Positions 42,882 through 64,000 of a stretch of DNA of 64,000 nt are shown piece after piece. Numbering within the stretch: the stretch's first letter is position 1; every line of letters starts with the position of its first letter. Made by a program: the position numbers and the translations under genes. The notes beneath the pieces are model-generated. The model worked only from the letters and a program-made list of their open reading frames with translations. It was not told the DNA's origin and searched no databases. This DNA is from Williamsia muralis NBRC 105860 (GTDB taxonomy: Bacteria > Actinomycetota > Actinomycetes > Mycobacteriales > Mycobacteriaceae). The stretch covers positions 496,001 through 560,000 of the forward strand of contig NZ_BDAP01000003.1 of the NCBI RefSeq assembly GCF_001598915.1. Direction: 5' to 3'.

Positions 42882-42914
42882 GGTTGTACTCCTGGGTCTG
42901 ATGAGCGCGTTGCT

Positions 42915-44056: not shown

Positions 44057-44240
44057 GTGCGATCTGTACCCAGGTGCGAACGAAATATCCCACGCAGCTG
44101 CCGCCGCAGGTGACCGGGCACACACTGATCTCAGGTCCCGCGTCGGCTTGGTTCCTTCGACACCGAGGGGGCACCTGACGTTTCACCGTGGGTCACCCGG
44201 CCTCGCTAGTCTTCCGAGCGAGTCCAGGTAAGGGGGCGCA

Positions 44241-45296
44241 ATGGATTTTCGACATCTCAAGTCATTCATCACCCTCGCTGAAGAATTGCATTTCGGCCGG
44301 GCCGCCGCACGTCTGCATCTGTCACAGCCGTCGCTCAGTGCACAACTGCAGAAGCTGGAGAAGTCACTGGGTGTCACGCTGGTGGTCCGCACCTCACACG
44401 AGGTCCAGTTGACGTCGTCGGGTGTCGAGTTCGCCAAGCAAGCCAGAGTGGTGGTCGCACAGATGGAAAAGGCTGTCGATGTCGCGAAGTCGACAGCCGC
44501 CGGCCAGGTCGGATCCCTGAATATCGGTTACAACTTCCCGGCGAGCAGACACGTCCTGCCCGCGGCGTTGACCAGGCTCAACGAGCGGCACCCGAGGATG
44601 GCGGTGTCTTTGTGGGAAAAGCGCACGGGACCACAACTCGGCGGGCTCCAGGACGGTTCGCTCGACGTCGCCCTGGTCTATGGTCGGCCGCAGCTGCCGG
44701 GATTGCGGGCCAGGTTGCTGTTGTCCAAGGTTCCCATCGTGGCCGTGGTCGGTCGCTCGCATCCGTGGGCCGGCCGGTCCAGCGTGCAATGCGCGGAGCT
44801 GGCCGCCGAACGATGCGTGCTGTTCGCCCGCGAACAGTGCCCCGCGATGTATGACGTGATAGTCGCGGCAGCGACCGAGGCAGGGGTCTCACTGACGATC
44901 GCGCAGACCTCGGACGACCCGAGCGGGACAGCGCACATGGTTGCGGTGAAACCGTATGTCGCATTCGCATCGCTGTCGCGGGCGGCGGCAGTGGGTATGG
45001 GCACCGCGGGTGCGTCCTCCGTGGCGGTCAAACTCATCGACCCGATTCCCACCATCGACCTGTACATGGTGTGGTCGGCTTCCACGGTGAACAGCGCGGT
45101 GGATGCCTTCGTCGAATGCGTCGACGAGATATGTGACGAAGACGAAACAGCCAGGCGCGCCGGTACGTTGGCAGCTCAGTCACAGAACAATCATCCAGAT
45201 GTGAAGTCGCAGAACGTGTTGTCCAGGACCTCGTCGTCGCGGGTTCCGGCACAATCTCCGGCCGGCCCGGGCCACCGGATTGCTGTCGTTCACTGA
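44241..45296 (+). CDS. LysR-type transcriptional regulator
   Basis: 351 residues. The winged-helix DNA-binding domain is at 1-60 (MDFRHLKSFITLAEELHFGRAAARLHLSQPSLSAQLQKLE), followed by the linker helix and a periplasmic-binding-protein-like effector domain (about 92-295). The last 55 residues are a Ser/Pro/Gln-rich tail. A GGTAAGGGGG site precedes the ATG. Placed at the left edge of the lipid gene cluster and reading towards it, it is the natural candidate regulator; an imperfect LysR-type dyad lies upstream of the FAD oxidoreductase gene. Effector unknown. Confidence 0.92.
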   Translation: MDFRHLKSFITLAEELHFGRAAARLHLSQPSLSAQLQKLEKSLGVTLVVRTSHEVQLTSSGVEFAKQARVVVAQMEKAVDVAKSTAAGQVGSLNIGYNFPASRHVLPAALTRLNERHPRMAVSLWEKRTGPQLGGLQDGSLDVALVYGRPQLPGLRARLLLSKVPIVAVVGRSHPWAGRSSVQCAELAAERCVLFAREQCPAMYDVIVAAATEAGVSLTIAQTSDDPSGTAHMVAVKPYVAFASLSRAAAVGMGTAGASSVAVKLIDPIPTIDLYMVWSASTVNSAVDAFVECVDEICDEDETARRAGTLAAQSQNNHPDVKSQNVLSRTSSSRVPAQSPAGPGHRIAVVH

Positions 45297-45379
45297 CTGC
45301 CATAGGCAAAACCTCTGGCACGGTCGGAAAGTGACGCTCGTACTGCCCTGCCGGAAGGCCACGAACAACCATTGTTCTC

Positions 45380-47062
45380 ATGAAGCAGATATCGCACGGC
45401 GGTACCGGCCTTGACCTCCTGGCCGACGAGAGCCTGTACGACCGGGTTCGAAAAGTGTTCGGAAGCAATTCTTTACGGCAGATACTTGTCGCGGGTGCGG
45501 ACGGAACCGCACTGTCCGGCGCCCAGGCCGACGACGAGGTGCGCCAGCGTGCTGGGATCCTTTCCGAGCGTGGTGTGCGCCGGGGTGATCGGGTCGCGAT
45601 CCTGTCGACAACCAGCCTCGACTGGGTGCTGACCGACCTTGCTGTTCTCGCGCTCGGAGCCGTGGTGGTTCCGGTGTACCCGACCTCGTCCGCCCAGCAG
45701 ATCGCGCACATTCTGGCCGATTCAGGGGCGGTACTGGGCATTGCCGACACCGACACGGAAAGTGATCGACTCGTCGAAGGGGGAGTACCGGCGATCACAT
45801 TCGACGATCTGATCGACGCGTCGGCGGCCGCACTCGACATCGAGGACACCTTGGCAGCGTGTGTGGCCGACGACGTGGCGATGATCGTATACACGAGCGG
45901 CACAACGGGTCCCGCAAAGGGCTGTGTCATCTCCCACCGCAACATGTTCGCAGCGGCGTCGAACACCGTGCTGCGAACCGGTGACATGTTCGTCGATCCA
46001 ACCGCGGTGACAGCTCTGGCTTTGCCACTGTCGCACGTGTTCGGTCAGACGATCTTGTTCGCCGGTTTGCTGGGCGGCACCAAGACCCACTTCATCAGCA
46101 GCATCCCGGAGCTGATCCCGCAACTTCCGTCGATCTCACCGAGCTTTCTCGCCCTGGTGCCTTACGCACTGGAGAAGATCCGCAAGATCGCCCGGCAGGG
46201 CCTCACCCCGGCAGACGAGGCCGAAGCGATCGCGCGTGGTCACACGGCGTTGACGTCGACCGAACTCGAAGCCACCGAACCCGTTGCCGGATTGCTCGGC
46301 GGTCGCCTGACCAACGTGATCTCGGGTGGTGCATCGCTCGATGCGACGACAGTTGCGTTCTATGCGGGGTTCGGTGTGCGACTCCTCAACTGCTACGGCA
46401 TGACAGAGACCGCCACCGCAGTGACGGTCAACGAGCCCATGACCAACCGGGTCGGCACTGTGGGACGCCCTATTCCGGGGACGACGGTCGCGATCGCCAA
46501 CGACGGCGAAGTGCTTGTAGGAGGAGCCAACGTCAGTCGCGGGTACTGGGGCGCGGCCGCGGACAAGACCGCCGTGGACGCGGAGGGATGGCTCCACACC
46601 GGCGACATCGGAGAGCTGGACGCCGACGGGTACCTCGTCATCACGGGCCGCAAGAAGGAGATCCTGGTGACCAGCGGGGGAAAGAACGTCGCCCCCACAC
46701 CACTCGAGGACAGGATCCGCCTGCACCCGCTGGTGAGCAATTGCATCGTCATCGGCGACGGCCGACCATTTGTCACCGCACTGGTGACGCTGGATCAGGC
46801 CCAGTACGCCCGCTGGCGGAAAGAAACGACGGACGCCACCGACGACCTCACGGATACACGGTTGACCCGCGCTGTGCAGCAGGCGATCGACGATGCCAAC
46901 AGCCTGGTGTCGCGTGCCGAGTCCATTCGCGAGTTCCGAATCGTCGAAGGTGACTTCACGGTGCAGGAAGGCCTTTTGACCTCATCGTTGAAACTCAAGC
47001 GCAGCAACATCATCGACACACACCGGCATCTTGTCGATGAGCTGTACGCAATCCGGGTGTAA
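45380..47062 (+). CDS. Long-chain acyl-CoA synthetase (AMP-forming)
   Basis: 560 residues, FadD15-like. ATP-binding signature MIVYTSGTTGPAKGCVISHRN near residue 170, adenylation motifs LNCYGMTETATAVTVNEP and WLHTGDIGELDADGYLVITGRKKEILVTSGGKNVAP, and a C-terminal lysine in LTSSLKLKRSNI. It lacks the insertion motif of fatty-acyl-AMP ligases, so it should go on to form acyl-CoA, unlike the FAAL at the other end of the cluster. ATG at 45380, 83 bases after the LysR gene, without a strong ribosome site. It may supply acyl-CoA starters or recycle the product. Confidence 0.92.
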   Translation: MKQISHGGTGLDLLADESLYDRVRKVFGSNSLRQILVAGADGTALSGAQADDEVRQRAGILSERGVRRGDRVAILSTTSLDWVLTDLAVLALGAVVVPVYPTSSAQQIAHILADSGAVLGIADTDTESDRLVEGGVPAITFDDLIDASAAALDIEDTLAACVADDVAMIVYTSGTTGPAKGCVISHRNMFAAASNTVLRTGDMFVDPTAVTALALPLSHVFGQTILFAGLLGGTKTHFISSIPELIPQLPSISPSFLALVPYALEKIRKIARQGLTPADEAEAIARGHTALTSTELEATEPVAGLLGGRLTNVISGGASLDATTVAFYAGFGVRLLNCYGMTETATAVTVNEPMTNRVGTVGRPIPGTTVAIANDGEVLVGGANVSRGYWGAAADKTAVDAEGWLHTGDIGELDADGYLVITGRKKEILVTSGGKNVAPTPLEDRIRLHPLVSNCIVIGDGRPFVTALVTLDQAQYARWRKETTDATDDLTDTRLTRAVQQAIDDANSLVSRAESIREFRIVEGDFTVQEGLLTSSLKLKRSNIIDTHRHLVDELYAIRV

Positions 47063-47100
47063 CCAGTCCGTAGCAGCATGAACGCGCGATGAATTCTGAA

Positions 47101-47121
47101 AGCTGTTAGCTGGCAATAGCT
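47101..47121. promoter_or_regulatory. Imperfect LysR-type dyad upstream of the FAD oxidoreductase
   Basis: AGCTGTTAGCTGGCAATAGCT: outer AGCT arms with inner TT...AA form an interrupted dyad of the size used by LysR regulators. It lies in an AT-richer 168-base gap, 110 bases before the start of the gene that leads the synthase operon. The match is imperfect and unproven. Confidence 0.35.
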
Positions 47122-47230
47122 TACGTCGATAGACCGATGAGACTACGCATGACGGCCTGGAGCCCTCATCCGTTCCGCAGAAGACTGAAGTCATCACACA
47201 TCAGATCGCACTGATCGCAGGGAGAATCGC

Positions 47231-48466
47231 ATGTACGACGTAATCGTGGTCGGCACCCGGGTTTCGGGATCGTCGGTGGCAATGCTGTTGGCACGCAGTG
47301 GGCTCAAGGTACTCGCGGTCGACGGGGCAACATTCCCGAGCGACACGGTCTCCACCCATTACATCCACCAGGCCGGGCTGTCCCGACTGCAGGATTGGGG
47401 ATTGCTCGACCGGGTGATCGCCAGCGGCTGCCCGCCCATTCGGCACCTGAACTTCTCTTACACCGACATCGCACTGAGCGGAATGGCAGACCCGATCGAC
47501 GGAATCGATGCCGTGTACTGCCCTCGCCGGACTGTGCTCGACTCCATTCTCGTCGACGCCGCACGCGAAGCCGGCGCCGAGATGATCGAGGGATTCACTG
47601 TGCGCGACCTGATCTTCGAAGGTGATCAGGTGGTGGGTATCCGCGGCAGCCGCGCCGGTGGATCCACCGAAGAGTTCAGAGCCGCCTTCGTGGTCGGAGC
47701 CGACGGCGCGAACTCCACTGTGGCCAAGCGTGTCGACGCCCAGAAGTACGACCAATCGGCCGGCGCATGCTTCGTCTACTACTCGTACTACTCCGGCCTC
47801 GACTGGGGCATGCAACATCGCACCGGCTTCGGGGAACAGCAGTTCGCCGCATGGCCGACGAACGACGATCTCTACCTTGTTGCCGTGATGCGCAAGCGCG
47901 ACCGTCTCAAGGAGTTCCGTAAGGACCCCGATACGAACATCCAGGAGATCGTGGACGCCATCGACCCGAAGTACGGAGAGAGCCTCCGTGACAACGGCAC
48001 CCGGGTGGAGCGGTTGCGGCCGATGACCTACCCGGACAACTACCGCCGTACCTCTTTCGGCCCGGGGTGGGCCTTGGTGGGCGACGCCGGCTATCACAAG
48101 GACCCGTTCACGGGCTGGGGCATCACCGACGCCTTCAAGTACGGCGAGATGCTCGCGCATCGCCTGGTGGAAGGCCTGGGCGGCCAGCGCCCGTTGTACG
48201 ACGCCCTCGCCTCCTACCAAGCCGACCGGGACGCCCAGAGTGCCGGGACGTACGAACTCACCAAGAGCATCTCGGAGCTCTCCTTGACCCCGTACTACGA
48301 CTCGGTCTTCCGGGCTGCGAGCAAGAGCCCTGAGTACACGACGAAGTTCTTCGGTCTCATCGCCGGTGGATACCCGGGTGAAGAGTTCTTCGCTCCTGAC
48401 AATCTCGCAGAGTTGTACGCGACCGTCGATCTGCCGGTCGGCGATCGGCACCTGGTCCAGGCATGA
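47231..48466 (+). CDS. FAD-dependent oxidoreductase of the lipid cluster
   Basis: 411 residues, para-hydroxybenzoate-hydroxylase fold. The N-terminal nucleotide loop DVIVVGTRVSGSSVAMLLARSG is the usual GxRxxGS variant of this subgroup; DTVSTHYIHQAGLSRLQDWGLLD and the second FAD motif WALVGDAGYHKDPFTGWGITDAF are complete. Relatives are monooxygenases, reductases (geranylgeranyl reductase type) and halogenases; the halogenase tryptophan motif is absent. A GGGAG site precedes the ATG. It opens the run FAD oxidoreductase-SGNH hydrolase-PfaA-PfaC-PfaD and probably hydroxylates or reduces the lipid chain (inference). Confidence 0.88.
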   Translation: MYDVIVVGTRVSGSSVAMLLARSGLKVLAVDGATFPSDTVSTHYIHQAGLSRLQDWGLLDRVIASGCPPIRHLNFSYTDIALSGMADPIDGIDAVYCPRRTVLDSILVDAAREAGAEMIEGFTVRDLIFEGDQVVGIRGSRAGGSTEEFRAAFVVGADGANSTVAKRVDAQKYDQSAGACFVYYSYYSGLDWGMQHRTGFGEQQFAAWPTNDDLYLVAVMRKRDRLKEFRKDPDTNIQEIVDAIDPKYGESLRDNGTRVERLRPMTYPDNYRRTSFGPGWALVGDAGYHKDPFTGWGITDAFKYGEMLAHRLVEGLGGQRPLYDALASYQADRDAQSAGTYELTKSISELSLTPYYDSVFRAASKSPEYTTKFFGLIAGGYPGEEFFAPDNLAELYATVDLPVGDRHLVQA

Positions 48467-49068
48467 GCGGCTACGGGCTATGTGCCATCGGCGACAGTTT
48501 CGTCGAAGGCCGGGGTGATGAGAATGCCGGTGGCGGCTTCCGCGGATGGGTTCCGCGACTTGCCGGCCAACTCGGCCTCCGCTCGGCCAAGGTCTGCAAC
48601 CTCGGCGCGCACGGCGCCACCAGCTCCGTTGTGGTCAGCGACCAACTAGAGCGGGCAGTCAGTGCGCGGGCACCGTTGACCGGAGTCATCGTGGGTGTCA
48701 ACGATCTTGTCAGCGACTTCGATCGAAATCGTTTCAGCGACAATGTGAGCACCATCTTCGAGACATTGAGCGCTGTATCACCGACCGTGTTCACGGCCAC
48801 CTACCCCGATATCCCGGCTCGTCTGCCGGTTCCCGCATCGTTCGCCGATCTGCTCCGCGAACGCTTCCAGTACGCGAACACCGTACTGGCCGACGTGTGC
48901 GACCGGACCGGAACAGTACTGCTCGACATCGCTGCCGACCGGCAGTGGGCGCGCAGTGACCTCTGGTCGGCAGACGGATTGCACCCCAATGCGCTGGGAC
49001 ACAGTACTTTTGCGCAATCCATCGCGGCAACCATCGCACGGCGTGCGGACACGGACCTCGCGGCCTGA
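48463..49068 (+). CDS. SGNH/GDSL hydrolase
   Basis: 201-residue esterase/lipase of the SGNH fold. Block I is AIGDSFVEGRGDE (catalytic Ser), block II glycine is in NLGAHGATSS, block III reads IVGVNDLVSDF (Asn) and block V is WSADGLHPNALGHSTFA (Asp and His). All catalytic positions are present. No signal peptide, so it acts in the cytoplasm. Start overlaps the FAD oxidoreductase stop; 29 bases separate it from the PfaA-like gene. It could release or edit acyl chains on the synthase; the substrate is unknown. Confidence 0.88.
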   Translation: MSGYGLCAIGDSFVEGRGDENAGGGFRGWVPRLAGQLGLRSAKVCNLGAHGATSSVVVSDQLERAVSARAPLTGVIVGVNDLVSDFDRNRFSDNVSTIFETLSAVSPTVFTATYPDIPARLPVPASFADLLRERFQYANTVLADVCDRTGTVLLDIAADRQWARSDLWSADGLHPNALGHSTFAQSIAATIARRADTDLAA

Positions 49069-49097
49069 CCCGATCGATCCTCGCACCACCAACTCCA

Positions 49098-52000
49098 GTG
49101 GAGACAGACGTGACACTCGCATCACCCCACGACACGGCGGGCCACGGCCCCGAATCGAGCAATCCCAGAAACGATTCGACGCCGTCCGATGTACCCGACA
49201 CCGAATATGTGAACCGGCGGTTGGCCGACACCCCGATCGCGATCGTCGGCATGTCAGCACTGCTACCCGGCGCCAAGAACATCCGAGACTACTGGCAGAA
49301 CATCGTCGACGGGACGGATTGCACCACCGAGGTGCCGCAGTCTCGATGGGACCTGGAGGACTACTACGACGCCGACAGGACTGCGCCCGACAAGACCTAT
49401 TCCAATCGGGGTGCGTTCATCCCGGACGTCGAGTTCGATCCTGTCGAGTTCGGTATGCCACCGAATCAGCTCGAGGTCACCAGCACCATGCAGACTCTGA
49501 GTCTCGGTGTTGTCCGTGACCTCCTCGGCGACGCCGGCGCCAAGGATTCCTCCTGGTACGACCCTTCCCGCACCGGCGTCGTCATCGGCACCACCGGTCC
49601 GGTGCCGCTGATGCACCCTCTTGCCGCCCGGCTGTCGACACCGGTCCTCAAGGCGGCCGCTCGTAGCTGTGGTCTCAGCGAGGCCGACACCGAGGCCGTT
49701 GCCGAAAAGTACGTGGCCGCCTTCGCACCGTGGGAGGAGAACTCGTTTCCCGGCCTCCTCGCCAACGTCGTCGCAGGGAGGATTGCGAACAGGTTCGGAC
49801 TCGGCGGTATGAACTGCACCGTCGATGCCGCCTGCGCCGCCTCGCTCGCAGCCATTCGTACCGCGATCGCGGAGCTGGTCGACGGCAGAGCAGACACGAT
49901 GATCACCGGTGGTGTCGACACCGAGAACTCGATCTTCATCTACCTCTGTTTCTCCAAGGTGGGCGCGCTGTCGCCTACCGGGCAGATCAGCCCCTTCTCC
50001 GACAACGCCGACGGCACGCTGCTCGGTGAAGGCATCTGCATGCTTGCCCTGCGTCGACTGTCGGACGCACGTCGGGACGGCAACAAGGTCTATGCGGTCA
50101 TCAAGGGAATCGGGTCATCGAGTGACGGACGATCCAACAGCATCTACGCTCCCCACGCCGATGGCCAGCGAGTGGCGCTCCAACGCGCTTACGACGATGC
50201 CCGCTGCGAGCCTTCGTCGGTCGAACTGTTCGAGGCACACGCCACCGGTACAGCAGTCGGTGACAAGACCGAACTCACAGCACTCGGAAAGATGCTGCGT
50301 GCCAACACCGATGAGGAGGCGTTTGCTGCGCTCGGTAGTGTCAAATCGCAGATCGGGCACACCAAGGGCGCAGCCGGTACAGCCAGCCTGATCAAACTGG
50401 CGCTGGGTCTGCATCACAAGATCCTGCCGGGCACCATCAACGTGAGTCGTCCCAACCCGGTCATCACAGATGGCGCGCCTTACTACGTCAACAGTCTCAC
50501 CCGCCCATGGGTGCTCGATCCACATCGCCCGGTGCGCAGGGCGGCGGTCTCGGCAATGGGATTCGGCGGCACGAACTTTCACATGGTCCTCGAGGAAGCC
50601 GATACGGACCGAAGTGGGGTGCGGACCTGGCACCAGACGCCGACGGCTTCGCTCTGGCACGCGCAGGACGTGCCGGCGCTCATCGAGGAACTCCAGAGCG
50701 GTTCGCCGGTCGATGGGGGCGACATCCCGGCAACCGACGCCAGAATCGGCTTCGTGTGGGTCGACGAGGAGCAGCGCAGCCGGCTCATCGAGGTCGCGTT
50801 GGAGACATTGGCGCGCGACGCTGACTCACCGGCCTGGAATCACCCAGAGGGCATATACTTTCGCCGACAGGCGCAGGCCGACCTCAAGGTGGGCGCACTG
50901 TTCTCCGGGCAGGGCAGCCAGTACGTCAACATGGCGGCCTCCTCGGCCATGAACCTACCGCCGGTGGCAGGGGCCTTTGATGACGCCAACGCCGCTTTCG
51001 AAGGTGTGGAGCGCCGACTCGGCTCCATCGTGTTCCCGCCTCCGGCCTTCGACGACGATGAACGGGCCGAGCAGGAGGAGCTCCTCAAACTCACCGAGCA
51101 TGCGCAACCGGCGATCGGTGCGGTATCGGTCGGTCAGTACAGATTTCTGTCAGAACTGGGCTTCACCGCGGAAACGTTCGGCGGACACAGTTTCGGGGAG
51201 CTCGGCGCGCTCTGGGCGTCCGGCGCACTGGAGACCGGGGACTACTTCCGGCTGGCGCGCGCACGCGGCGCCGCGATGGCCAAAGAATCGGGCTCAGACC
51301 GGGGAGCGATGCTGGCCGTTCGCGCTTCGCGCTCCGACGTCGACGAGCTGGTCGACCGCACCGACGACGTTTACGTGTGCAATCACAACGCCCCTGACCA
51401 AGTGGTGGTCGGTGGTGGCAGCGACGCCGTGGCGGATTTCGCCGAACAATGCGCTGAGCTCGGCTGGAACACAAGGACATTGCCGGTGTCGGCAGCGTTC
51501 CATACGCCGTACGTCGCACACGCCACCGGCACGTTCCGCGAGGCGGTGGACTCGGTCACCATCGGTGCCCCCCAGGGCGCAGTGTACGGAAACGATCCCG
51601 AACGTGTCTACGGACCCGATGCTGCAGGCAACGCCGACATCCTCGTCGACCAGTTGATGCACCCCGTCGAGTTCGTGGCGGTGCTCCGAGGTATGCGCGA
51701 CGCGGGCTGCACGACCTTCGTCGAGTTCGGACCCAAACAGGTGCTCACGTCTCTGGTTCGACGCACGCTGGGTGATGAGGTCATCGCGATTCCCACCGAC
51801 ATCGGACCGATGGGAGACGGAGACCTCGGGCTCAAACGGGCCGCGGTCGCTCTGGCGGTTTTGGGGATGCCGTTGTCCGGCATCAATCGGTATCAGGCCG
51901 AGCCGCCGGCCCCACCGCGCACGTCGGCGATGGCGGTCACCATCTCAGCACCGGAATTCGTTCCGGAAACCCGTCGTAAGGCGTACGCCGACGTACTGGC

Positions 52001-55412: not shown

Positions 55413-55447
55413 CCACCCGGAACCACGCATCGAAGACAGGAAGATCC

Positions 55448-57484
55448 ATGGCACACATCCGCTTTGACGGCATTGTGTTCAATCCCGTACCTGCCAGACC
55501 CGCGGACGTGGTGGAGGCCGCGCCGAGATCCGCCGGCAACCGTACCCGCGAATCGCTCGCACCGCGAGAAACCGTGCCGGTGGGGGCGATGGCACCGCTG
55601 GCCGCAGTCCGAGACAGTGTTGTCCGTGCTCACCAAGCCACCATTGCTGCCGCGTCGGCTGTCGCACGGGCGACACTGCGCGATGGCCTCAACCCGGCAC
55701 CGAGACAACTGGGTGAAAAACCGTGGCTCGAGACCGTAGACACGTTCTCCACCACTCGCGCTGCCGAACTCGCTGCTGTGCGTTGTTTTCGACCTCTGGC
55801 CCGATCCGCCAAACGGGAGCTGTCCTCTGAAGACATCGATGTACTCACCCGCGGCGGGATCGAGCAGGTGTTCGGTCCGGCACACCGTCAAACCGCCACC
55901 GATCATGCGACCGGCCGAACCATCGCCGCGAACAGCATGTTGACGGTCGCGTCCCACGGACAGGTAGAGAGCATCGAAGGTCTCGAGTCGTCGCCACGCG
56001 GGGCCGACTTCGGCGGCCTCACAGTGAGGTACAACGGTGACCCCGTTGCGGCCGCACGGTCCGCGGCCGAGGTTTTCGGTGTGTTCGTTGGTCTGCATCT
56101 GTGTATGTCCGATTGCGTGGCCGAATCGCAGGCACACGGCACCGCACCGAATCCACCTTCGTCACAACGATTGTCATTGCGCGTGGTGGAGATCGATCTC
56201 GTCCCGATTCCGCATCTACGGGCGCGCGTGAGTATTGATGGGTCAGAGCCGTCCCGGGACAACGGTTTCGATGTCACCGTTGACTTCATACCTCGCAATG
56301 GTGTCGCATTGGGCCCCGGTACCAACGGTCACCTGCAGGACTGGACCGGACGCGTGGCGACAACTGGCCGGCAGGCACTGTTGAGCGAGTTCCACATGGC
56401 GCATCTGGCCCGCGGTGACCAGGGGATCGCGTTCGGACCCGAGTTCTCGCGCTACACCGGCAACCGGGCCACCCGGCTGCCCACGGGAGGGCTGTTGCTG
56501 GTCGACCGGGTCACAGAGTTCTCCGGCACACGAGGCAATTGGGACGCCGGTGCGGACTATCGCACCGAATACGACGTGCCTGCCGACGCGTGGTACCTGG
56601 AGGACACTGCAAACGGATCTGTGCCGCACTTCGTCTACATGGAGACCTCGTTGCAGGCCGCTCTGCTGATGGGCTACTACCTCGGCCCCACGCTCGGGTC
56701 CACAGAGACCTTGCGACTCCGAAACCTCGGCGGAACCGCCACCGTCAGTCGCAGACTCGACCTCCGGGGAAAGACGGTCGATCAGAGTTCGACGCTCGTG
56801 TCGACGACGCTGATGCCTGGGTCATCGCTGCAGAGTTTCGACTACTCCCTTCGGGTGGATGGAGATGAGTTCTACAGTGGCACGACCATGTTCGGGTATT
56901 TCAGCGATTCGGCCCTGGACAATCAAACCGGGCTCGACGCAGGACGCCATCGACCGAACTGGCTCGAGACACTGGAGTCGGCACCGCAGATACGCACCAT
57001 CGATGTGGCGGCACGTAGGGACCGGCGCGAACCGCTGTGCTCCACGGGGGCGTTGGCTCTGGTCGACCACGTCGATGTGGTCGACGGAGGTGGCCAGTAC
57101 GGCAAGGGGTATCTGCACATGACCCGCGACATCGAGGCAGACGAGTGGTTCTTCGACTGCCACTTCTACCTTGATCCGGTGATACCGGGTTCGCTCGGCG
57201 TCGAGTCGGTGATCCAGTGCATCCAAGAGTGGATGGTGGATGCCGGGATGCACCGGCAATGGCGTGACCCGCAGTTCCACATTCCCGAGAACGTGCCCTT
57301 CAACTGGAAGTACCGCGGTCAGTTCGTCCCGGACGACGGTCATTGTGAACTGGAAGTCCACGTGAAAGACATTCGTACCCAGGCGGACTCGGTTGTTGTC
57401 CTCGCAGACGCGTCGTTGTGGAAACCGGGGTTGCGCATATACGAACTCATCGACATCTCGGTTGAACTCAGGGAAGGGATCTGA
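55448..57484 (+). CDS. PfaC-like tandem dehydratase without KS or chain-length factor
   Basis: 678 residues. The C-terminal half holds two FabA-like hotdog domains in PfaC order: DH1 about 320-520 (IAFGPEFSRYTG, LLLVDRVTEF, YRTEYDVPADAWYLED, HFVYMETSLQAALLMGYYLG) and DH2 about 530-678 with His572 and Glu586 in CHFYLDPVIPGSLGVE and FNWKYRGQF. PfaC normally begins with KS and chain-length-factor domains; here they are replaced by about 300 residues of unclear fold (including GGIEQVFGPAH, possibly a worn hotdog). It should dehydrate, and perhaps isomerise, beta-hydroxyacyl-ACP made by the PfaA-like protein. ATG at 55448 after AGGAAG; a GTG at 55403 overlapping pfaA is an alternative. Confidence 0.88.
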   Translation: MAHIRFDGIVFNPVPARPADVVEAAPRSAGNRTRESLAPRETVPVGAMAPLAAVRDSVVRAHQATIAAASAVARATLRDGLNPAPRQLGEKPWLETVDTFSTTRAAELAAVRCFRPLARSAKRELSSEDIDVLTRGGIEQVFGPAHRQTATDHATGRTIAANSMLTVASHGQVESIEGLESSPRGADFGGLTVRYNGDPVAAARSAAEVFGVFVGLHLCMSDCVAESQAHGTAPNPPSSQRLSLRVVEIDLVPIPHLRARVSIDGSEPSRDNGFDVTVDFIPRNGVALGPGTNGHLQDWTGRVATTGRQALLSEFHMAHLARGDQGIAFGPEFSRYTGNRATRLPTGGLLLVDRVTEFSGTRGNWDAGADYRTEYDVPADAWYLEDTANGSVPHFVYMETSLQAALLMGYYLGPTLGSTETLRLRNLGGTATVSRRLDLRGKTVDQSSTLVSTTLMPGSSLQSFDYSLRVDGDEFYSGTTMFGYFSDSALDNQTGLDAGRHRPNWLETLESAPQIRTIDVAARRDRREPLCSTGALALVDHVDVVDGGGQYGKGYLHMTRDIEADEWFFDCHFYLDPVIPGSLGVESVIQCIQEWMVDAGMHRQWRDPQFHIPENVPFNWKYRGQFVPDDGHCELEVHVKDIRTQADSVVVLADASLWKPGLRIYELIDISVELREGI

Positions 57485-57485
57485 C

Positions 57486-59042
57486 ATGGTTGCGCCGTCC
57501 ACAACATCCGGGACCGATGAGATCGCACAGACGACAGCAGCATTGTCAGACCTCTCGCGACCATGCTGGGTGATCCGGGACAAAGAAGACATCCGGGTGA
57601 CGTCCGACGAGGCAGTCGCTGCTCGGTCAGAAGTGCTCGCTGCCGTCGGGCCGTTGACCCCTGACCGTCTCGGCGATCGATCCTTCCAGCATTTTCACGG
57701 TGTGCGATACGGATACATGGGCGGCGCGATGGCCAATGGAATCGCGTCGCCCGATCTGGTCAGCGCGCTTGCCAAGGCCGGATACCTTGCCTCCTACGGC
57801 GCTGCAGGCGTCGTACCGGCGAAGGTCGATGCGGCGCTGGCCGAGCTGACGGCAACACTGCGCGATACCCCGTTCGCCTGCAACGTCATCCACAGTCCGA
57901 GCGAACCCGCTCTCGAGCGTGCCATCGTGGATGCGTGCCTGCGCCATCGGGTGACCTGCGTCGAGGCGTCCGCCTTCATGTCCATGACGGCGGAACTGGT
58001 CCGCTATCGAGTTCTCGGGCTCAGATCCGCTCCCGACGGGGAAATCGTCCGGGGACACAGGGTGGTGGCTAAGGTGTCCCGGCTCGAGGTGGCAGAGGCC
58101 TTCTTACGGCCGGCACCCGCTGCGTTGCTGCGCCAGCTCATGGAATCGGGTGACATCACCGCGGAGTCGGCCCACCTGGCCGCATCGGTACCGATGGCCG
58201 ATGACGTCACCGTCGAGGCGGACTCGGGAGGTCACACCGATCGCCGGCCATTGCTGGTGGCATTACCTGAGATCATCGCGCTGCGCGACCGCATCGCCGG
58301 GGAATCACCTCTCGCCGCGAATGTTCGAATCGGGGCGGCGGGCGGCATCGGGACGCCTGCGGCAGCCGCGGCGGCTTTCGGACTGGGAGCGGCGTACGTC
58401 GTCACCGGGTCGATCAATCAGGCAAGCGTGGAGGCGGGTACCTCCGCGGCCACGAAAGAGCTATTGGCCACCGCTGGTTCAGCCGATTGCGTGATGGCAC
58501 CGTCCTCGGACATGTTCGAGATGGGGGTGCAGGTGCAGGTACTGCGGCGAGGAACCATGTTCGCCGGCCGCGCCGCTCAGCTGTACGACGCTTACCGCGC
58601 TTACGACTCGATCGACGCGATCCCGCAGAAGGTGCGCGACGGGCTCGAACGCGACATCTTCCGCCGGCCGCTGGAATCGGTCTGGGACGAGTGCGTGCGT
58701 TACTTCACCGAACGTGACCCAAACCAGATCGCGGCTGCCCAGAACAACCCGCGTCGCCGGATGGCGCTGGTGTTCCGGTGGTACCTCGGCCTCTCGTCGG
58801 GATGGAGCATCGGTGGGGACGAGACCCGAACAGCGGACTACCAAGTGTGGTGCGGCCCGGCCATGGGAGCGTTCAATTCCTGGGCGGCCGGAACGCATCT
58901 GGCGTCCGCCCGCAACCGTCGCGCCGCGGACATCGCGCATCACGTCATGACCGGTGCCGCATTCCACACCCGGGTGGGCATCCTGCGCGGTGCGGGTGTG
59001 CACTTCCCGCCGCAGTGTGCGACCTACTGGCCGTCCCTGTAG
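57486..59042 (+). CDS. pfaD: PfaD-type FMN enoyl reductase
   Basis: 518-residue trans-acting enoyl reductase of the PfaD/2-nitropropane-dioxygenase family. TIM-barrel and FMN-binding stretches are VRYGYMGGAMANGIASPDLV, LASYGAAGVVPAKVDAAL, VRIGAAGGIGTPAAAAAAFGLGAAYVVTGSINQ and SSDMFEMGVQVQVLRRGTMF; the C-terminal half WYLGLSSGWSIGG...YQVWCGPAMGAFN is typical of PfaD. It reduces the enoyl-ACP double bond in cycles where saturation is needed. ATG at 57486 lies one base past the PfaC-like stop, with GGGAAGGG as ribosome site, so the core trio is one transcript. Confidence 0.95.
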   Translation: MVAPSTTSGTDEIAQTTAALSDLSRPCWVIRDKEDIRVTSDEAVAARSEVLAAVGPLTPDRLGDRSFQHFHGVRYGYMGGAMANGIASPDLVSALAKAGYLASYGAAGVVPAKVDAALAELTATLRDTPFACNVIHSPSEPALERAIVDACLRHRVTCVEASAFMSMTAELVRYRVLGLRSAPDGEIVRGHRVVAKVSRLEVAEAFLRPAPAALLRQLMESGDITAESAHLAASVPMADDVTVEADSGGHTDRRPLLVALPEIIALRDRIAGESPLAANVRIGAAGGIGTPAAAAAAFGLGAAYVVTGSINQASVEAGTSAATKELLATAGSADCVMAPSSDMFEMGVQVQVLRRGTMFAGRAAQLYDAYRAYDSIDAIPQKVRDGLERDIFRRPLESVWDECVRYFTERDPNQIAAAQNNPRRRMALVFRWYLGLSSGWSIGGDETRTADYQVWCGPAMGAFNSWAAGTHLASARNRRAADIAHHVMTGAAFHTRVGILRGAGVHFPPQCATYWPSL

Positions 59043-59064
59043 TGCGTTCGACGAGGGAGTAGGC

Positions 59065-59892
59065 ATGCCCGAGGTGGTGGTGGGCGGTACAACCGTCGGA
59101 TACCACGACACGGGTGTGCCGGCGGGCGTGCCCGGCGCGCAGACAGTGGTGTTTGCGCACGGATTGTTGTTCGACAGCAGGATGTTCGAGGCTCAGGTCG
59201 AGGTGCTGCGGGGACGCTACAGGTGTGTTGCCTTCGATTGGCGAGGGCAGGGAACTTCACCCCCGACAGTCGACGGGTACGACATCGAAACCCTCACCAG
59301 GGATGCGCTGGGCCTGCTCCGGGCTCTCGACATCGGACCCGTGCACTGGGTGGGGCTCTCGATGGGGGGATTTGTCGGTTTGCGTCTCGGCGCCCGCCAC
59401 GGCGAGTTGCTTCTATCCCTCGCTCTGCTGGACACCAGCGCCCGCGCCGAAACGCCCGGCACTGTCCGGGAGTACAAGCGACTGGCGTGGACGCAGCAAT
59501 TGATCGGATTCGGACCGATCACATCGATGGTCGCGCCTCACATGTTCGGCCCGTCGTATCGGCTAGATCCGTGGAACAAAGCATCGCTCGATCGCTGGCG
59601 ACAAGCGGTGGGACAACGGAAACGCAGTAGCGTGCGCAAGGCGGTGTACGGGGTTGCCGAACGCGCCTCGGTAGATCACGAGATCGGCGCGATCGCCGTA
59701 CCGACGCTTGTGCTCGTCGGTGCGGATGACGCCGCCACGCCACCGTCGGAGTCCGAACACATCGCATCGTCGATACCGACGGCCCGACTGCAGGTGATCG
59801 ACAACTGCGGTCACAGCAGCACCGTGGAACAGCCGGCGGCGATTTCAGCTCATCTTGCGGACTTCCTCGCCGAGGTGTCCCGAACTCAGTGA
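59065..59892 (+). CDS. Alpha/beta hydrolase
   Basis: 275 residues. Oxyanion stretch FAHGLLFDSRMF, nucleophile elbow VGLSMGGFVG (Ser about 97), acid VLVGADDAATPP and His in NCGHSSTVEQP give a complete triad. Ends the plus-strand synthase run, 22 bases after pfaD, with GAGGGAG before the ATG at 59065; the frame is open from 58954 inside pfaD. It may hydrolyse the finished acyl chain from the synthase or an ester of the product. The last 48 bases overlap the convergent thioesterase gene. Confidence 0.9.
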   Translation: MPEVVVGGTTVGYHDTGVPAGVPGAQTVVFAHGLLFDSRMFEAQVEVLRGRYRCVAFDWRGQGTSPPTVDGYDIETLTRDALGLLRALDIGPVHWVGLSMGGFVGLRLGARHGELLLSLALLDTSARAETPGTVREYKRLAWTQQLIGFGPITSMVAPHMFGPSYRLDPWNKASLDRWRQAVGQRKRSSVRKAVYGVAERASVDHEIGAIAVPTLVLVGADDAATPPSESEHIASSIPTARLQVIDNCGHSSTVEQPAAISAHLADFLAEVSRTQ

Positions 59893-60357
59893 CCGACCCG
59901 TCGACAGCTGAATCGCTCGCGTCAGTTTCATCAGTCGGATGTTGCGCATGGTCACCAGCCCGGTGGCACATAACGTGTCACCGACCGCGGATGAAGTGAA
60001 CACGTCTGCGGCAGCCACCGTGATGGTGCTGCCTGCCTTGAGTACTCGACCATGAACCACCAGCTTGTCGCCCTTTGCCGGTGCCAAGATCTTGATCGTG
60101 TAATCGACCGTCATGTTGATCCAGCCCGGTGGAAGCAAGGTTCCGGCGGCCGAACCGCCGGCGAAGTCTGCCAGTGAGCCGATGACGCCACCCTGAAAGA
60201 ATCCGTTGTGTTGGGTCAGCTCCTGGCGGTAGGGCGCCACGAGTTCGACATCCCCGGGTTCGATGCGGGTGAAATCGAAACCCAGATGTTTGGCCGCGGG
60301 CATGCTGAGGACAACGTCCCTCACCGCTTGTTCGAAATCAGGGTTTGGAGCTTCCAT
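59845..60357 (-). CDS. PaaI-family hotdog thioesterase
   Basis: 170 residues, single hotdog domain. The PaaI-type signature is QHNGFFQGGVIGSLADFAGGSAAG (Asn/Gly catalytic region near residue 50), then INMTVDYTIKILAPAKGDKLVVHGRVLKAG. It hydrolyses acyl-CoA or acyl-ACP thioesters. Last gene of the minus-strand unit P450-TEII-FAAL-thioesterase; its ATG lies 20 bases inside the FAAL 3' end, and its own 3' end runs 48 bases into the alpha/beta hydrolase gene on the opposite strand. Three different hydrolases or thioesterases therefore meet at this junction. Confidence 0.9.
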   Translation of the reverse strand: MEAPNPDFEQAVRDVVLSMPAAKHLGFDFTRIEPGDVELVAPYRQELTQHNGFFQGGVIGSLADFAGGSAAGTLLPPGWINMTVDYTIKILAPAKGDKLVVHGRVLKAGSTITVAAADVFTSSAVGDTLCATGLVTMRNIRLMKLTRAIQLSTGRSLSSGHLGEEVRKMS

Positions 60358-62179
60358 GTCTACCGTCCTTTTCTGGGACTACTGGGTCCGAGTCGATGCG
60401 ATACGGATCCGGCGTTGAGGTCTGTGTCTGCACACAATCGAAATCCCCTGCGACGTAACGACGTCGAGCTGAGGCTCGCATGATCTTCCCGCTGGTGGTC
60501 TTGTGGAGTTGTCCCGGCGTCACCAAGAGCACATCGCTGACGGTCACCTGGTGTTCGCGCGTGACCGCGCCTCGAATTGCGAACGAGATGTCGTGACACC
60601 GCGACTCGGGCAGTCGGTCTTCGCCTCTGATCTCCGCTACCACCACCAGGGCCTCCACACGGTCTCGTAGCGTGGAGAACGCAGCGCAACCACCAGGCCG
60701 GACCGACGGATGTGCCGACTGTACTGTGTGCTCGATGTCGTGAGGGTAGTAGTTCGTCCCGCGGATGATCACCATGTCTTTGAGGCGTCCCACAACGAAG
60801 AGTTCATCATCGATGAATGCGCCGAGATCGCCGGTGCGTAAGTACCTCGATCCGGGCGAGCCGTCGATGCGGGCACCGAAGGTTTCCGCCGACTCGTCCG
60901 GTCGACGCCAGTAACCCTGTGCCACATGGTCTCCGGCCACCCAGATCTCACCGATCTGATCGGCGCGGCATGGCCGTCGGGTATCTGGATCGATGATGCG
61001 AACATCCTCTCGCAGCAGGACCGTTCCCGATCCGACGATGGTGGGCGACGATGGCTCGGGACTGTGGTTCGTCTCCGGCACAAGGCGTTTACGACCGCGC
61101 TCCGCGGGATCGACCACGATGTGGCGAGAGCCCCTGCCTTTTCTCGCGGCCGTCACCAGGAGCGTCGCCTCGGCCAGGCCGTAGCAAGGCATGAACGCGG
61201 CCTCGGTGAACCCTGCGGGTTCGAATCGTTCGGCGAACCGTCGTACGGTGTCGTCGTGGATCGGCTCGGCTCCGTTGAACGCAACTTTCCAGTGGCTCAG
61301 GTCGAGTCCGGCGACCGTGGCGTCCGTAGCCCGCGCAACACACAGGTCGAAGGCGAAGTTCGGGCCTCCACTCGTGTGCGCGCGGTAACGCGAGATCGCC
61401 GACAGCCACATCAGGGGCCGCCGGATGAACGCGGACGGTGACATCAGGACGCTGGTGGCACCGACGTAGAGCGGCTGCAGGACATTGCCGATCAGCCCCT
61501 GGTCGTGAAAGAAGGGCGCCCACCCCACCACGGTCGATTGACTGTCATGGCCGAAAGCCGCCTGGATCATCCGTTGATTGGCGACAAGATTGCCGTGCGT
61601 GACCATCACCCCTTTGGGGTCCGAGGTCGAGCCAGAAGTGTACTGCAGAAAGGCGATGTCGCCGGTCGCGGGGCGCTGCGCCTCCAGTTCCGCATCCATC
61701 TGGTCGGTGAAGTCGGTGCCTGTAGGTGGCATCTGGTCGACGACGATCCAGCTGATCGTCGGCACGGTCAGCGCCGGCAGCGCCTGTGCCGGCTCCAGCA
61801 TCGAGCTCACGGTGAGGACAGTCGTGGGTTCACAGTCCCGCACGATGTTCGCTGTGGTGGTCCGCTGCCCATGTGCTCCCGGCGGTACAACCGGCACAGC
61901 GACAACTCCTGCGTACAGGCACCCGAAGTAGGCGACGATGAAGTCCGGACCCTGAGGGAACACCAGAACCGCGCGATCGCCGGGTCGGCAGCACGACAGC
62001 AGTCGCCACGCCACCTCCGTGGCCTGCCGGTACAGTGCCCCGTAGGTCAGCGTCACCGTCTCGACACCCGAATCATCCAGGAAGACATACGCTTTCCTGT
62101 CCGGATCAGAGTCTGCACGTTCACGCAGCAGCTGCGGCAACGTCGGCGATTCGGTAAGGGACCGTTGCGCTACATTCAC
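60338..62179 (-). CDS. Fatty-acyl-AMP ligase (FAAL)
   Basis: 613 residues, FadD32/FadD26 type. Adenylation motifs: DIAFLQYTSGSTSDPKGVMVTHGNL near residue 180, the FAAL-typical VVGWAPFFHDQGLIGNVLQPLY, CYGLAEATLLVT and RTGDLGAFIDDELFVVGRLKDMVIIRGTNYYPHDIE, with Lys in LHKTTSGKIMR. FAALs make acyl-AMP and pass the acyl chain to an ACP, not to CoA. The only ACP in the window is in the PfaA-like protein, so the chain goes either there or to an unseen carrier beyond the right edge. GTG start overlaps the type II thioesterase stop. Confidence 0.93.
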   Translation of the reverse strand: MNVAQRSLTESPTLPQLLRERADSDPDRKAYVFLDDSGVETVTLTYGALYRQATEVAWRLLSCCRPGDRAVLVFPQGPDFIVAYFGCLYAGVVAVPVVPPGAHGQRTTTANIVRDCEPTTVLTVSSMLEPAQALPALTVPTISWIVVDQMPPTGTDFTDQMDAELEAQRPATGDIAFLQYTSGSTSDPKGVMVTHGNLVANQRMIQAAFGHDSQSTVVGWAPFFHDQGLIGNVLQPLYVGATSVLMSPSAFIRRPLMWLSAISRYRAHTSGGPNFAFDLCVARATDATVAGLDLSHWKVAFNGAEPIHDDTVRRFAERFEPAGFTEAAFMPCYGLAEATLLVTAARKGRGSRHIVVDPAERGRKRLVPETNHSPEPSSPTIVGSGTVLLREDVRIIDPDTRRPCRADQIGEIWVAGDHVAQGYWRRPDESAETFGARIDGSPGSRYLRTGDLGAFIDDELFVVGRLKDMVIIRGTNYYPHDIEHTVQSAHPSVRPGGCAAFSTLRDRVEALVVVAEIRGEDRLPESRCHDISFAIRGAVTREHQVTVSDVLLVTPGQLHKTTSGKIMRASARRRYVAGDFDCVQTQTSTPDPYRIDSDPVVPEKDGRHGSSKP

Positions 62180-62916
62180 TTCGCGGGCACCACGTTGTCG
62201 AGCGCGCGGACCATGTGGGCAGCGATGGCGTCGCGGTGCTGCTGGTGGAAAAAGTGGTCCCCTGTGAACTCATGCGATCGAAATGCATTGTGTGAGTGTG
62301 CTGCCCAAGCTCGAACTTCCTCGGGGTCAACCACCGGATCTCCTGTCCCGTAGAAGGCCGTGATCGGACACGGCAGTGTTGTTGTGCGCCCGAACGTGTA
62401 CTTCTCGGACAGTTCCAGGTCGGCTCTGATCAGAGCCAGCACGTACTGGCGGAACTCGGGGCTCGTTGCCTCGATATCACCCATGCCCCCCATCGTGCGC
62501 AGCGCTGTGATCAAGTCCGGTTCTGAGGCGTCGTGGATCGGGGTCCTACTCGGCGAACGATGGGGTGCACGCCGTCCCGACACAAACAGGTGGACAGGTG
62601 CGGCACCGGCAGCACACAGCTCGTGCGCCAATTCGAACGCCACCAGTGCCCCCATGCTGTGGCCGTACAGCGCAACCCGTGAGTCGAGAAGACAGATGTC
62701 GGAGACCAATGCACTGACCGCCTCGCCGACCCGGCGAAAGTGCGGCTCGGACGCTCGATCCTCTCGGCCAGGGAGTTGGGTTCGCACCACTGCGATGGTG
62801 GTGGGGAACAGGCCGAGCCATCGATTGAAGGACGCCGCGCCACCGCCGGCGTGCGGGACGCATATCAAATGGACAGGGGAGTCGTCGGCGCCCCTCAACA
62901 GCACGGACGTGGTCAT
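62176..62916 (-). CDS. Type II (editing) thioesterase
   Basis: 246-residue alpha/beta hydrolase of the GrsT/TEII family, which removes wrong or stalled acyl groups from carrier proteins of PKS and NRPS systems. CVPHAGGGAASFNRWL at the start, nucleophile GHSMGALVAFELA (Ser about 82), acid in FYGTGDPVVDPEE and His in TGDHFFHQQ are all present. Overlaps the P450 stop by four bases and the FAAL start by four bases. TEII genes are nearly always beside the synthase they serve, so it supports a carrier-protein system here or just past the window edge. Confidence 0.93.
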   Translation of the reverse strand: MTTSVLLRGADDSPVHLICVPHAGGGAASFNRWLGLFPTTIAVVRTQLPGREDRASEPHFRRVGEAVSALVSDICLLDSRVALYGHSMGALVAFELAHELCAAGAAPVHLFVSGRRAPHRSPSRTPIHDASEPDLITALRTMGGMGDIEATSPEFRQYVLALIRADLELSEKYTFGRTTTLPCPITAFYGTGDPVVDPEEVRAWAAHSHNAFRSHEFTGDHFFHQQHRDAIAAHMVRALDNVVPAK

Positions 62917-64000
62917 GCCGCCTCATCGATCAGTCGAACCGGGAGCTGGGAGAGCCCGCGGACGATCAAACTGTCTGTCTGCCAGTCGAAGTGCTCGGTC
63001 ACCAGTTCCAGGCGCCGTCCGGAATCGCCGAAGAGAACGCCGATCGCAACCTCCGCCTGTAGCCGCGCGAGGAGGCCGCCGAGACAGCCGTGCATGCCGT
63101 GACCGAACGCGAGGTGCCGCTGACCGGTGCGGGTCAAGTCGAACTCATCTGGTTTCTCGAACACAGCGGGGTCTCTGTTCGCAGCCCCGATACAGAGCAG
63201 TATCTGGTCGCCGGCTTCCACCGCGCTCCCGCCGATCTCGACTCCGCGGGTGGCGACTCGTTTGGTCATCTGTAGCGGGCTCTGGAAGCGCAGGGTCTCT
63301 GCCACCGCAGCGCTTGCCAGGGACCGGTCCGACGTCAGCAGGTTTTGTTGCTCGGGGTGCTGCAACAGGGCCAGCACAGCGTTCCCGATCAGTGACTTGG
63401 TGGTCTCGTTGCCGGCGACAAAACACATGATGCACAGAAAGACGATCTCCTCGGATGCGAAGGCGTCGCCCCCTGAGGTCTTCGCGGCCAGTAGATTGCT
63501 GATCAGGTCCGTGCCGGGATGCGCTTTGCGGTGAGCCACCAGGTCGTCGAACGCAGTGGTGAACTCCTCCACCACGTCGCACACGCGACTGAAGACCGCG
63601 GCACTCATCAGGCCTGGTTCCAGCAGGAACCGGATATCCCGAGTCCACGGCCCGACCTGTGCACGAATGCTCTCCGGAACGTCCATCCAGTCACACATCA
63701 CGGTCACGGGCAAAGGTGCGGCATAGTCACCGATGATGTCCATGCCGTCGTGCCGCGTCTGCTCGAACAACTTCTGCGCGACACCGACAATTCGCGGCCG
63801 TAGCGAGGCGACAGCTTTACTGCTGAACGCCTGATTGATCAGGCCGCGTAACCGCGCGTGGTCCGGATTGTCGGTGAACACCAGCGACTTCTCGCCCAGC
63901 CGCTCGATCCGCGCAACGTTGCTCTGCGACAGACGATCTGCTTGCCGATTCACCAATTGTGGTATCACCGCTGAGCTGAACGTCCGGTCCATCAACACCG
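62913..64000 (-). CDS. Cytochrome P450, N-terminus beyond the window
   Basis: About 361 residues are visible and the frame is open at the window end, so roughly the first 40-50 residues are missing; the GTG at 63998 is not taken as the start. Readable parts: the C-helix region DNPDHARLRGLINQAF, the I-helix FVAGNETTKSLIGNAV with the oxygen-activating Thr, ETLR (ExxR), and the haem-binding loop LAFGHGMHGCLGGLLARLQ with the Cys ligand. A soluble bacterial P450 needing ferredoxin. It probably hydroxylates the lipid or a later intermediate; none of the substrate recognition regions points to a known product. Confidence 0.93.
   Translation of the reverse strand, partial: VLMDRTFSSAVIPQLVNRQADRLSQSNVARIERLGEKSLVFTDNPDHARLRGLINQAFSSKAVASLRPRIVGVAQKLFEQTRHDGMDIIGDYAAPLPVTVMCDWMDVPESIRAQVGPWTRDIRFLLEPGLMSAAVFSRVCDVVEEFTTAFDDLVAHRKAHPGTDLISNLLAAKTSGGDAFASEEIVFLCIMCFVAGNETTKSLIGNAVLALLQHPEQQNLLTSDRSLASAAVAETLRFQSPLQMTKRVATRGVEIGGSAVEAGDQILLCIGAANRDPAVFEKPDEFDLTRTGQRHLAFGHGMHGCLGGLLARLQAEVAIGVLFGDSGRRLELVTEHFDWQTDSLIVRGLSQLPVRLIDEAA

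Follow-up and report, generated by a model that had tools for sequence, protein, structure and literature searches.

The stretch of DNA analysed here, called the window, covers 64,000 nucleotides (contig C3:496001-560000) of the 5.54 Mb genome of Williamsia muralis NBRC 105860, a member of a genus that produces mycolic acids. Two groups of genes face each other there: a plus-strand arm centred on a synthase of the Pfa (polyunsaturated fatty acid, PUFA) type, and a minus-strand arm, the cassette, centred on a predicted fatty acyl-AMP ligase (FAAL). Gene families were assigned with Pfam and with NCBIfam (TIGR) models at their own cut-offs, and structures were compared through PDB matches and Foldseek. 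Pfam confirmed, position by position, each of the twelve genes named in the initial annotation (Table 1). By its PfaC gene, the closest named relative is Williamsia muralis BULT 1.1 (98% identical).

Table 1. Genes of the two arms and of their flank. Coordinates above 64000 extend past the end of the window. KS, ketosynthase; AT, acyltransferase; ACP, acyl carrier protein; KR, ketoreductase; PS_DH, dehydratase of the polyketide synthase (PKS) type; PLP, pyridoxal phosphate.
Feature	Position	Strand	Assignment
LysR-family regulator	44241-45296	+	PF03466/PF00126
Acyl-CoA synthetase (FACL)	45380-47062	+	PF00501
FAD oxidoreductase (FAD_binding_3), geranylgeranyl-reductase-like	47231-48466	+	PF01494; TIGR02032 at 93 bits (cut-off 158.8)
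SGNH/GDSL hydrolase	48463-49068	+	PF13472
PfaA-like synthase, KS-AT-ACP-KR-PS_DH, 2104 aa	49098-55412	+	Pfam domains; TIGR02813
PfaC-like protein, dehydratase region	55403-57484	+	PF07977
PfaD enoyl reductase	57486-59042	+	TIGR02814; the open frame begins at 57393, with the probable ATG at 57486, directly behind the stop of PfaC
Alpha/beta hydrolase	59065 (probable ATG)-59892	+	PF00561
Hotdog thioesterase (PaaI/4HBT type), closing the cassette	59845-60357	-	PF03061, TIGR00369
FAAL	60338-62179	-	PF00501, PF23024
Type II thioesterase (TEII)	62176-62916	-	PF00975
Cytochrome P450	62913-64205 (in window to 64000)	-	Pfam
CMAS-like methyltransferase	64202-65107	-	Pfam
Discrete ACP, 88 aa	65104-65370	-	Pfam
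Membrane fatty-acid desaturase	65367-66344	-	Pfam
GNAT-like gene (our reading), adjoining the desaturase, upstream of the cassette	66357-67064		
PLP decarboxylase, upstream of the cassette	66968-68545		Pfam; NCBIfam names below cut-offs
Ugp-like ABC transporter and phosphoesterase	68490-73821 (L004:8490-13821)		Pfam; NCBIfam names below cut-offs

The Pfa-type synthase and the FAAL cassette

The plus arm is a short iterative synthase of the Pfa type, made of PfaA, a dehydratase protein of the FabA type and PfaD. PfaA scored 1451 bits against TIGR02813 (cut-off 1010) and PfaD 617 bits against TIGR02814 (cut-off 449), the latter also matching the PfaD structure 6lkc in the PDB (E 3.7e-166). By Pfam, PfaA holds one each of the KS, AT, ACP, KR and PKS-type dehydratase (DH) domains, with the KS motif residues at 242, 379 and 420, the AT motif at 696 and the ACP serine motif at 1233. 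Tandem ACPs were not found in it, Pfam and the motif search both giving a single one. PfaA relatives longer than 1700 aa have 1 to 5 ACPs by motif, and clusters with a single ACP were accepted as Pfa type on other grounds in an earlier classification (PMC3098273).

The name "PfaC-like" held for the FabA-type part of the protein and failed for a full PfaC: the sole Pfam match is FabA, at the C-terminus, and there is neither a KS nor a chain length factor (CLF). The KS-CLF-DH-DH architecture was not found, nor was any KS-like part among the structure-model matches shown. An AlphaFold2 model made with 38 orthologues (mean pLDDT 76.7, pTM 0.76, low confidence at the N-terminus) gave DH structures, FabA among them, as best Foldseek matches. 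From the order of strands and helices in this model we read three hotdog-like folds. The last one keeps the catalytic His (H587, invariant together with E601 in 38 sequences), and the middle one has Glu400 where the catalytic His would be. With neither of these in its PfaC-like protein, i.e. KS or CLF, the whole synthase has a single KS, as far as the cluster goes.

The initial annotation had noted the absence of PfaB and of a phosphopantetheinyl transferase (PPTase). Both absences were borne out: no second acyltransferase domain is present among the genes at 44241-66344, and the PPTase family PF01648 occurs elsewhere in the genome only (C3:8948, C3:167644 and C4:488853). With no PfaB, no KS-CLF, one ACP and no PPTase gene in the cluster, this is indeed not a standard pathway to eicosapentaenoic or docosahexaenoic acid. 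A scan for PfaC loci found 132, of which the best 80 were read. In these 80, the genes of the plus arm are again found together, among others in Nocardia, Rhodococcus, Amycolatopsis, Frankia and its kin, Gordonia, Tsukamurella and Streptomyces, and the SGNH hydrolase, probably a chain-releasing thioesterase, is present in many. The first four orthologous clusters that were read likewise have a LysR homologue at the head of their plus arm.

The minus arm had been described as P450, TEII, FAAL and PaaI thioesterase. These four genes stand, and the extent does not: the P450 gene is cut by the end of the window and the arm goes on beyond it. Read 5′ to 3′, the complete cassette is desaturase, ACP, CMAS-like enzyme, P450, TEII, FAAL and hotdog thioesterase. 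From the desaturase to the FAAL every neighbouring pair of genes overlaps by 4 bases, as would suit a tightly coupled operon. The best PDB match of the FAAL is 7r7e (E 4.5e-135, residues 16-580 of 613), a chain of the acyl-AMP ligase type, with FadD23, FadD32 and FadD28 among the further matches, and NCBIfam models for fatty-acid-AMP ligases match it, all below their cut-offs. For the P450, the second-best PDB match is the biotin-pathway P450 3ejb, which we take to be P450BioI, acting on acyl-ACP.

We surveyed the cassette in 39 of the 46 desaturase-positive genomes other than that of the window (G401, G681, G690, G754, G786, G793 and G828 were left out), plasmid records not being counted and the identity thresholds being our own choice. 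Desaturase and ACP were found at all 39 desaturase loci; CMAS-like enzyme, P450 and FAAL were found at 38, the remaining locus lying near a contig edge. The order and strand of the core, i.e. desaturase-ACP-CMAS-P450-FAAL, were kept in 38 of the 39. TEII was present at 20 of these loci and the hotdog thioesterase at 26, and a homologue of the alpha/beta hydrolase lay near the cassette at 19.

Joint occurrence and linkage of the two arms

The initial annotation supposed that the two arms cooperate on one undescribed lipid, a claim that was to fall if relatives did not conserve them together. Two samples not selected for Pfa were searched, 151 genomes of the family and 394 of the class. The synthase was followed through PfaC, counted at E 1e-90 (2 of the 11 in the family count, G410 and G418, were weaker, at E 1e-93, and lay in longer open frames). 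The cassette was followed through its desaturase, whose orthologues are well separated from other desaturases (E 1e-163 or better versus 1e-79 or worse, in the order sample). In the family sample the desaturase was found in 6 genomes and PfaC in 11, and all 6 hold both. In the class sample, 18 genomes had the desaturase and 26 had PfaC: 17 had both, 9 PfaC only, 1 the desaturase only and 367 neither. Fisher tests gave p values of 3e-8 (family) and 2e-22 (class), uncorrected for kinship. Counting shared genomes once, PfaC was present in 21 of the 22 desaturase-positive genomes of the two samples. Within the window's genus, 3 of 9 genomes have both arms and 6 have neither. Joint conservation was therefore found, with PfaC in 6/6 and 17/18 of the desaturase-positive genomes.

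From the first four orthologous clusters read, it had seemed that the arms were not conserved together; whole-genome searches for the desaturase over more genomes overturned this view. Of these first four genomes, three (G132, G192 and G235) indeed have no close desaturase orthologue, their best matches being at E 1e-70 to 1e-74, and in the fourth, G214, the cassette lies 443 kb away. The desaturase was found in 28 of 50 named PfaC-positive genomes, which came from the 80 loci read (the 30 omitted were mostly short or repeated, L085, L096 and L108 were dropped only to keep the set at 50, and L104, although short, was retained because its cassette had already been seen).

The two arms are also often neighbours. 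Among the 28 other genomes holding both, 17 have them on one contig within 42 kb, which, with their joint conservation, supports the idea that they cooperate on one undescribed lipid. The history of the pair was followed on a PfaC tree of 51 proteins, made by a quick method, which requires 16 changes in cassette presence, at least 12 of them on strongly supported branches, a scatter like that of shuffled labels (a mean of 16.8 changes); desaturases missed in draft genomes could add false changes to this count. It follows from these changes, at least 12 in number, that the arms were not simply passed down together. Over the tree the cassette appears and disappears, yet in these samples it is nearly always where the Pfa synthase is. 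On the megaplasmid pRho-G13 of Rhodococcus opacus, the cassette, the Pfa arm and the decarboxylase, GNAT-like and ABC transporter genes form one run, an arrangement that speaks for a single movable unit comprising them all. A chance neighbourhood of the arms was rejected on the grounds of joint occurrence, PfaC tree and linkage.

A proposed pathway of two modules and its alternatives

We propose, with a probability of about 0.6, that the locus encodes one pathway of two modules, a Pfa synthase and a portable acyl-ACP cassette that hands over a tailored acyl-ACP. We infer the chemistry of this pathway from what is known of the families, and the direction of hand-over and the product are likewise inferred. 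In the first module, PfaA, the FabA-type dehydratase protein and PfaD would extend a chain by malonyl units, after a PPTase encoded elsewhere in the genome has armed the ACP of PfaA. The SGNH hydrolase may release the Pfa chain, the acyl-CoA synthetase may activate it and the geranylgeranyl-reductase-like flavoprotein may reduce it. In the second module, the FAAL would turn a fatty acid into acyl-AMP and load it on the discrete ACP. The desaturase would then put a double bond into the ACP-bound acyl chain, at which the CMAS-like enzyme would add a methyl or cyclopropane group, and the P450 would oxidise a nearby position of the ACP-bound chain; TEII and the hotdog thioesterase would serve for editing. 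The tailored acyl-ACP would finally be passed to the Pfa synthase as a primer, or be joined to the Pfa chain.

Several observations weigh against this proposal. Kinship limits the joint occurrence, as 16 of the 18 desaturase genomes and 24 of the 26 PfaC genomes of the class sample belong to one family (f32, which includes Pseudofrankia, and in which G842 and G535 share coordinates). In one genome, G786 (87% complete, in 480 contigs), the desaturase is present, and a search for PfaC at E 1e-60 found none. No desaturase orthologue was found in 22 of the 50 chosen PfaC-positive genomes, nor in 9 of the 26 of the class sample, which means that the Pfa module is able to work without the cassette. 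The figure of 28 in 50 is itself not unbiased, since six of these loci (L044, L104, L105, L114, L116 and L118) were known beforehand to show the cassette. As to linkage, the arms are on different contigs in 11 of the 28 genomes holding both and far apart in G214 (443 kb), G585 (264 kb) and G632 (1.5 Mb), and the cassette is within 10 kb of PfaC in just 6 of the best 80 of the 132 PfaC loci, many of them shortened by contig ends. A plasmid of Pseudonocardia alni bears a cassette headed by a 69% identical desaturase and has no PfaC (the chromosome was not searched), and in Thalassospira, Tistrella, Polaromonas and one Sphingobium the surroundings of the related cassettes gave no PfaC match. The chemistry is concerned too: by alignment, the CMAS-like enzyme has Gln in place of the His of "LHTI" in CmaA1, a His near the active site of that enzyme. 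Because of this replacement, one may guess at a methyl branch rather than a ring.

Some of these observations are those expected if the two arms made separate products and owed their association solely to a tendency of lipid islands to accumulate or to move jointly. The split over different contigs in 11 of the 28 genomes, the presence of the whole set on the R. opacus megaplasmid, where joint transfer is possible, and the occurrence of the cassette without PfaC on the Pseudonocardia plasmid, and of its relatives without PfaC in proteobacteria, would all fit. This explanation nevertheless appears improbable to us, as it accounts poorly for the co-occurrence of the arms even when they are distant (G214, G585 and G632), for the presence of PfaC in 21 of 22 desaturase-positive genomes, and for the changes in cassette status, at least 12, along the PfaC tree.

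The company kept by the cassette elsewhere bears on what it does. On the Pseudonocardia alni plasmid it lies beside a modular PKS (with one PKS open frame outside the gene table), acetyl-CoA carboxylase genes and an ABC transporter. A plasmid of the alphaproteobacterium Thalassospira marina has the full cassette (L237:11944-24555) beside an A-T-C protein of the non-ribosomal peptide synthetase (NRPS) type, a TauD dioxygenase, a class II aldolase and a Pnap_2097 family protein. In Polaromonas, a related cassette adjoins a KS-ACP protein and a KS protein, and in Tistrella desaturase, ACP, CMAS-like enzyme and FAAL are together. Plasmids of Sphingobium sp. TomMM15 (L244:7863-11624) and S. indicum B90A (L245:6869-10749) have a gene for an acyl-homoserine-lactone synthase directly followed by a reduced ACP-CMAS-FAAL set, which may serve specifically to provide acyl-ACP for a homoserine lactone of unusual structure. 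Modular PKS, KS, NRPS and acyl-homoserine-lactone synthases can all accept acyl-ACP donors. Since the other partners can use acyl-ACP in this way, a cassette that supplies a tailored acyl-ACP is favoured.

The same comparison bears on the opposite direction of transfer, in which a polyunsaturated or polyene acid from the Pfa synthase, once freed by the SGNH hydrolase, would be loaded by the FAAL on the discrete ACP, there to be tailored and released by the desaturase, CMAS-like enzyme, P450 and thioesterases. The cassette would then finish the product of the Pfa synthase. A hydrolase able to release the chain does sit in the Pfa arm and in many orthologous clusters, and the JamA precedent begins with a free fatty acid (PMC11837247). 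Dependence is moreover one-sided, with PfaC in 17 of 18 cassette genomes and the desaturase missing in 9 of 26 PfaC genomes; this asymmetry fits the reverse direction and the use of the acyl-ACP as primer equally well. What makes the reverse direction rather unlikely is that elsewhere the cassette, or a reduced form of it, adjoins acyl-ACP acceptors that one would not expect to provide it with a free fatty acid, i.e. the modular PKS, the NRPS protein and the acyl-homoserine-lactone synthase.

Returning to the transfer of a tailored acyl-ACP from the cassette, we give even odds to a broader statement. According to it, a portable FAAL-ACP-desaturase-CMAS-like cassette, with the P450 optional, would make methyl-branched or cyclopropane, oxidised acyl-ACP for acceptors as different as Pfa synthases, modular PKS, NRPS and acyl-homoserine-lactone synthases, and its pairing with Pfa would yield an undescribed family of hybrid lipids. 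The Pfa-paired cassette was found in the window and in some 45 other actinomycete genomes, including Nocardia, Rhodococcus, Amycolatopsis and Pseudofrankia.

Known systems and neighbouring genes

The desaturase of the cassette has three histidine boxes. Its PDB relatives are acyl-CoA desaturases, and its sole NCBIfam match, below the cut-off, is to the DesA family. The motif CxxCG...CPxCG, presumably that of rubredoxins, was not found in the six frames of window positions 44000-64000 and of L004 (C3:556001-575000). A polyyne cluster, which would include two further desaturases and a rubredoxin, was considered and rejected, given the single desaturase among the genes scanned and the lack of a rubredoxin-like motif. 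Alkyne and polyyne cassettes of the JamABC type (PMC8406139, PMC11837247) have in common with ours a portable FAAL, a membrane desaturase and a discrete ACP, and polyyne clusters add a thioesterase, likewise present here (PMC8406139). They differ in that here a CMAS-like enzyme comes after the ACP, there is one desaturase and no rubredoxin-like motif, and the partner is a Pfa synthase. In its adjacent FAAL, membrane desaturase and discrete ACP, the cassette resembles the JamABC type.

These three domains in proximity are counted as alkyne potential in PMC8406139. Taken with the histidine boxes, they would suit a special case of priming by the cassette, namely a JamABC-type alkyne maker that sets a terminal triple bond on the FAAL-loaded acyl-ACP starting the Pfa chain. 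We consider this very improbable: in each of the 38 loci clear of a contig edge, the gene after the ACP encodes the CMAS-like methyltransferase, which would act on a double bond, and neither the PDB relatives of the desaturase nor its sub-threshold DesA match speaks for an alkyne maker.

On the side of the synthase, actinobacterial clusters of the Pfa type without known product have been typed since 2011 (Shulse and Allen, PMC3098273), and that work lists types H, L, M and Q, which have actinobacterial members, as uncharacterised; type Q, that of Rhodococcus erythropolis PR4, is a possible counterpart of our locus. The present locus is like these secondary lipid synthases in having PfaA and PfaD over the NCBIfam cut-offs, the order KS-AT-ACP-KR and a FabA-type dehydratase protein; it differs in having no KS-CLF, no PfaB, no PPTase gene and one ACP only, and in its FAAL/desaturase/CMAS/P450 cassette. 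RerA of Rhodococcus erythropolis PR4, both in vitro and in E. coli, produces conjugated polyenes, and the chains bound to its ACPs reach C22 (PMC11563203). RerA/RerB and our locus have in common a single iterative KS-AT-ACP-KR-DH protein and come from close genera, whereas RerA has two ACPs and a partner, RerB, of the PPTase-Y-TE type, where our locus has one ACP, a FabA-type protein and PfaD. Finally, a 2026 survey of PUFA-synthase hybrids (PMC13291983) describes clusters that lack CLF or KS-CLF, as well as Pfa-like synthases paired with PKS and NRPS. Shared with our locus are the lack of KS-CLF and the presence of other machinery alongside, and a Mycobacteriales clade there has a CoA-ligase (CAL) gene; in contrast, our locus has no PKS/NRPS partner, and the words "faal" and "desaturase" are absent from the main text of that survey.

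Among the open-licence papers searched, none was found that joins a fatty acyl-AMP ligase cassette with a PUFA synthase. The Pfa synthase and the FAAL-desaturase-ACP cassette are known; their recurrent pairing and the CMAS-bearing cassette are new. If the proposal is true, a single pathway, widespread in actinomycetes, brings together the Pfa-type synthases of secondary lipids and the portable cassettes that supply acyl-ACP starters. Cultured strains can then be examined for the product of this pathway, which would also serve as a simple model for Pfa synthases that lack KS-CLF. It would also give a lead towards unusual acyl-homoserine lactones in Sphingobium.

Among the genes near the two arms, those upstream of the cassette recur elsewhere. 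The GNAT-like gene had no family match in Pfam or NCBIfam profiles. G356, a genome of the same family in which PfaD is present (68% by tblastn), has the PLP decarboxylase and the GNAT-like gene just before the cassette desaturase (L180), with its Pfa cluster (L181-L182) on another contig. Since these two genes are beside the cassette there and apart from the Pfa cluster, we regard them as tied to the cassette. The permease family of the Ugp-like transporter was seen in 37 of the best 80 of the 132 PfaC loci, always on the opposite strand, and also on the R. opacus megaplasmid; a possible role for the transporter is head-group uptake.

Two further observations concern the plus arm. On the 3′ side of PfaD (L045-L123), families of putative acetyl-CoA carboxylase subunits were found in 38 and 43 of the same best 80 of 132 loci; the window has none of them. 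The assignment of these genes is our own reading, one carboxyltransferase having been confirmed by Pfam. Upstream of the cluster, at positions 42201-43472 of the window, lie two proteins rich in Ala, Lys and Glu, one of them matching CsbD at a score slightly under the cut-off of Pfam; both are probably unrelated to the cluster.

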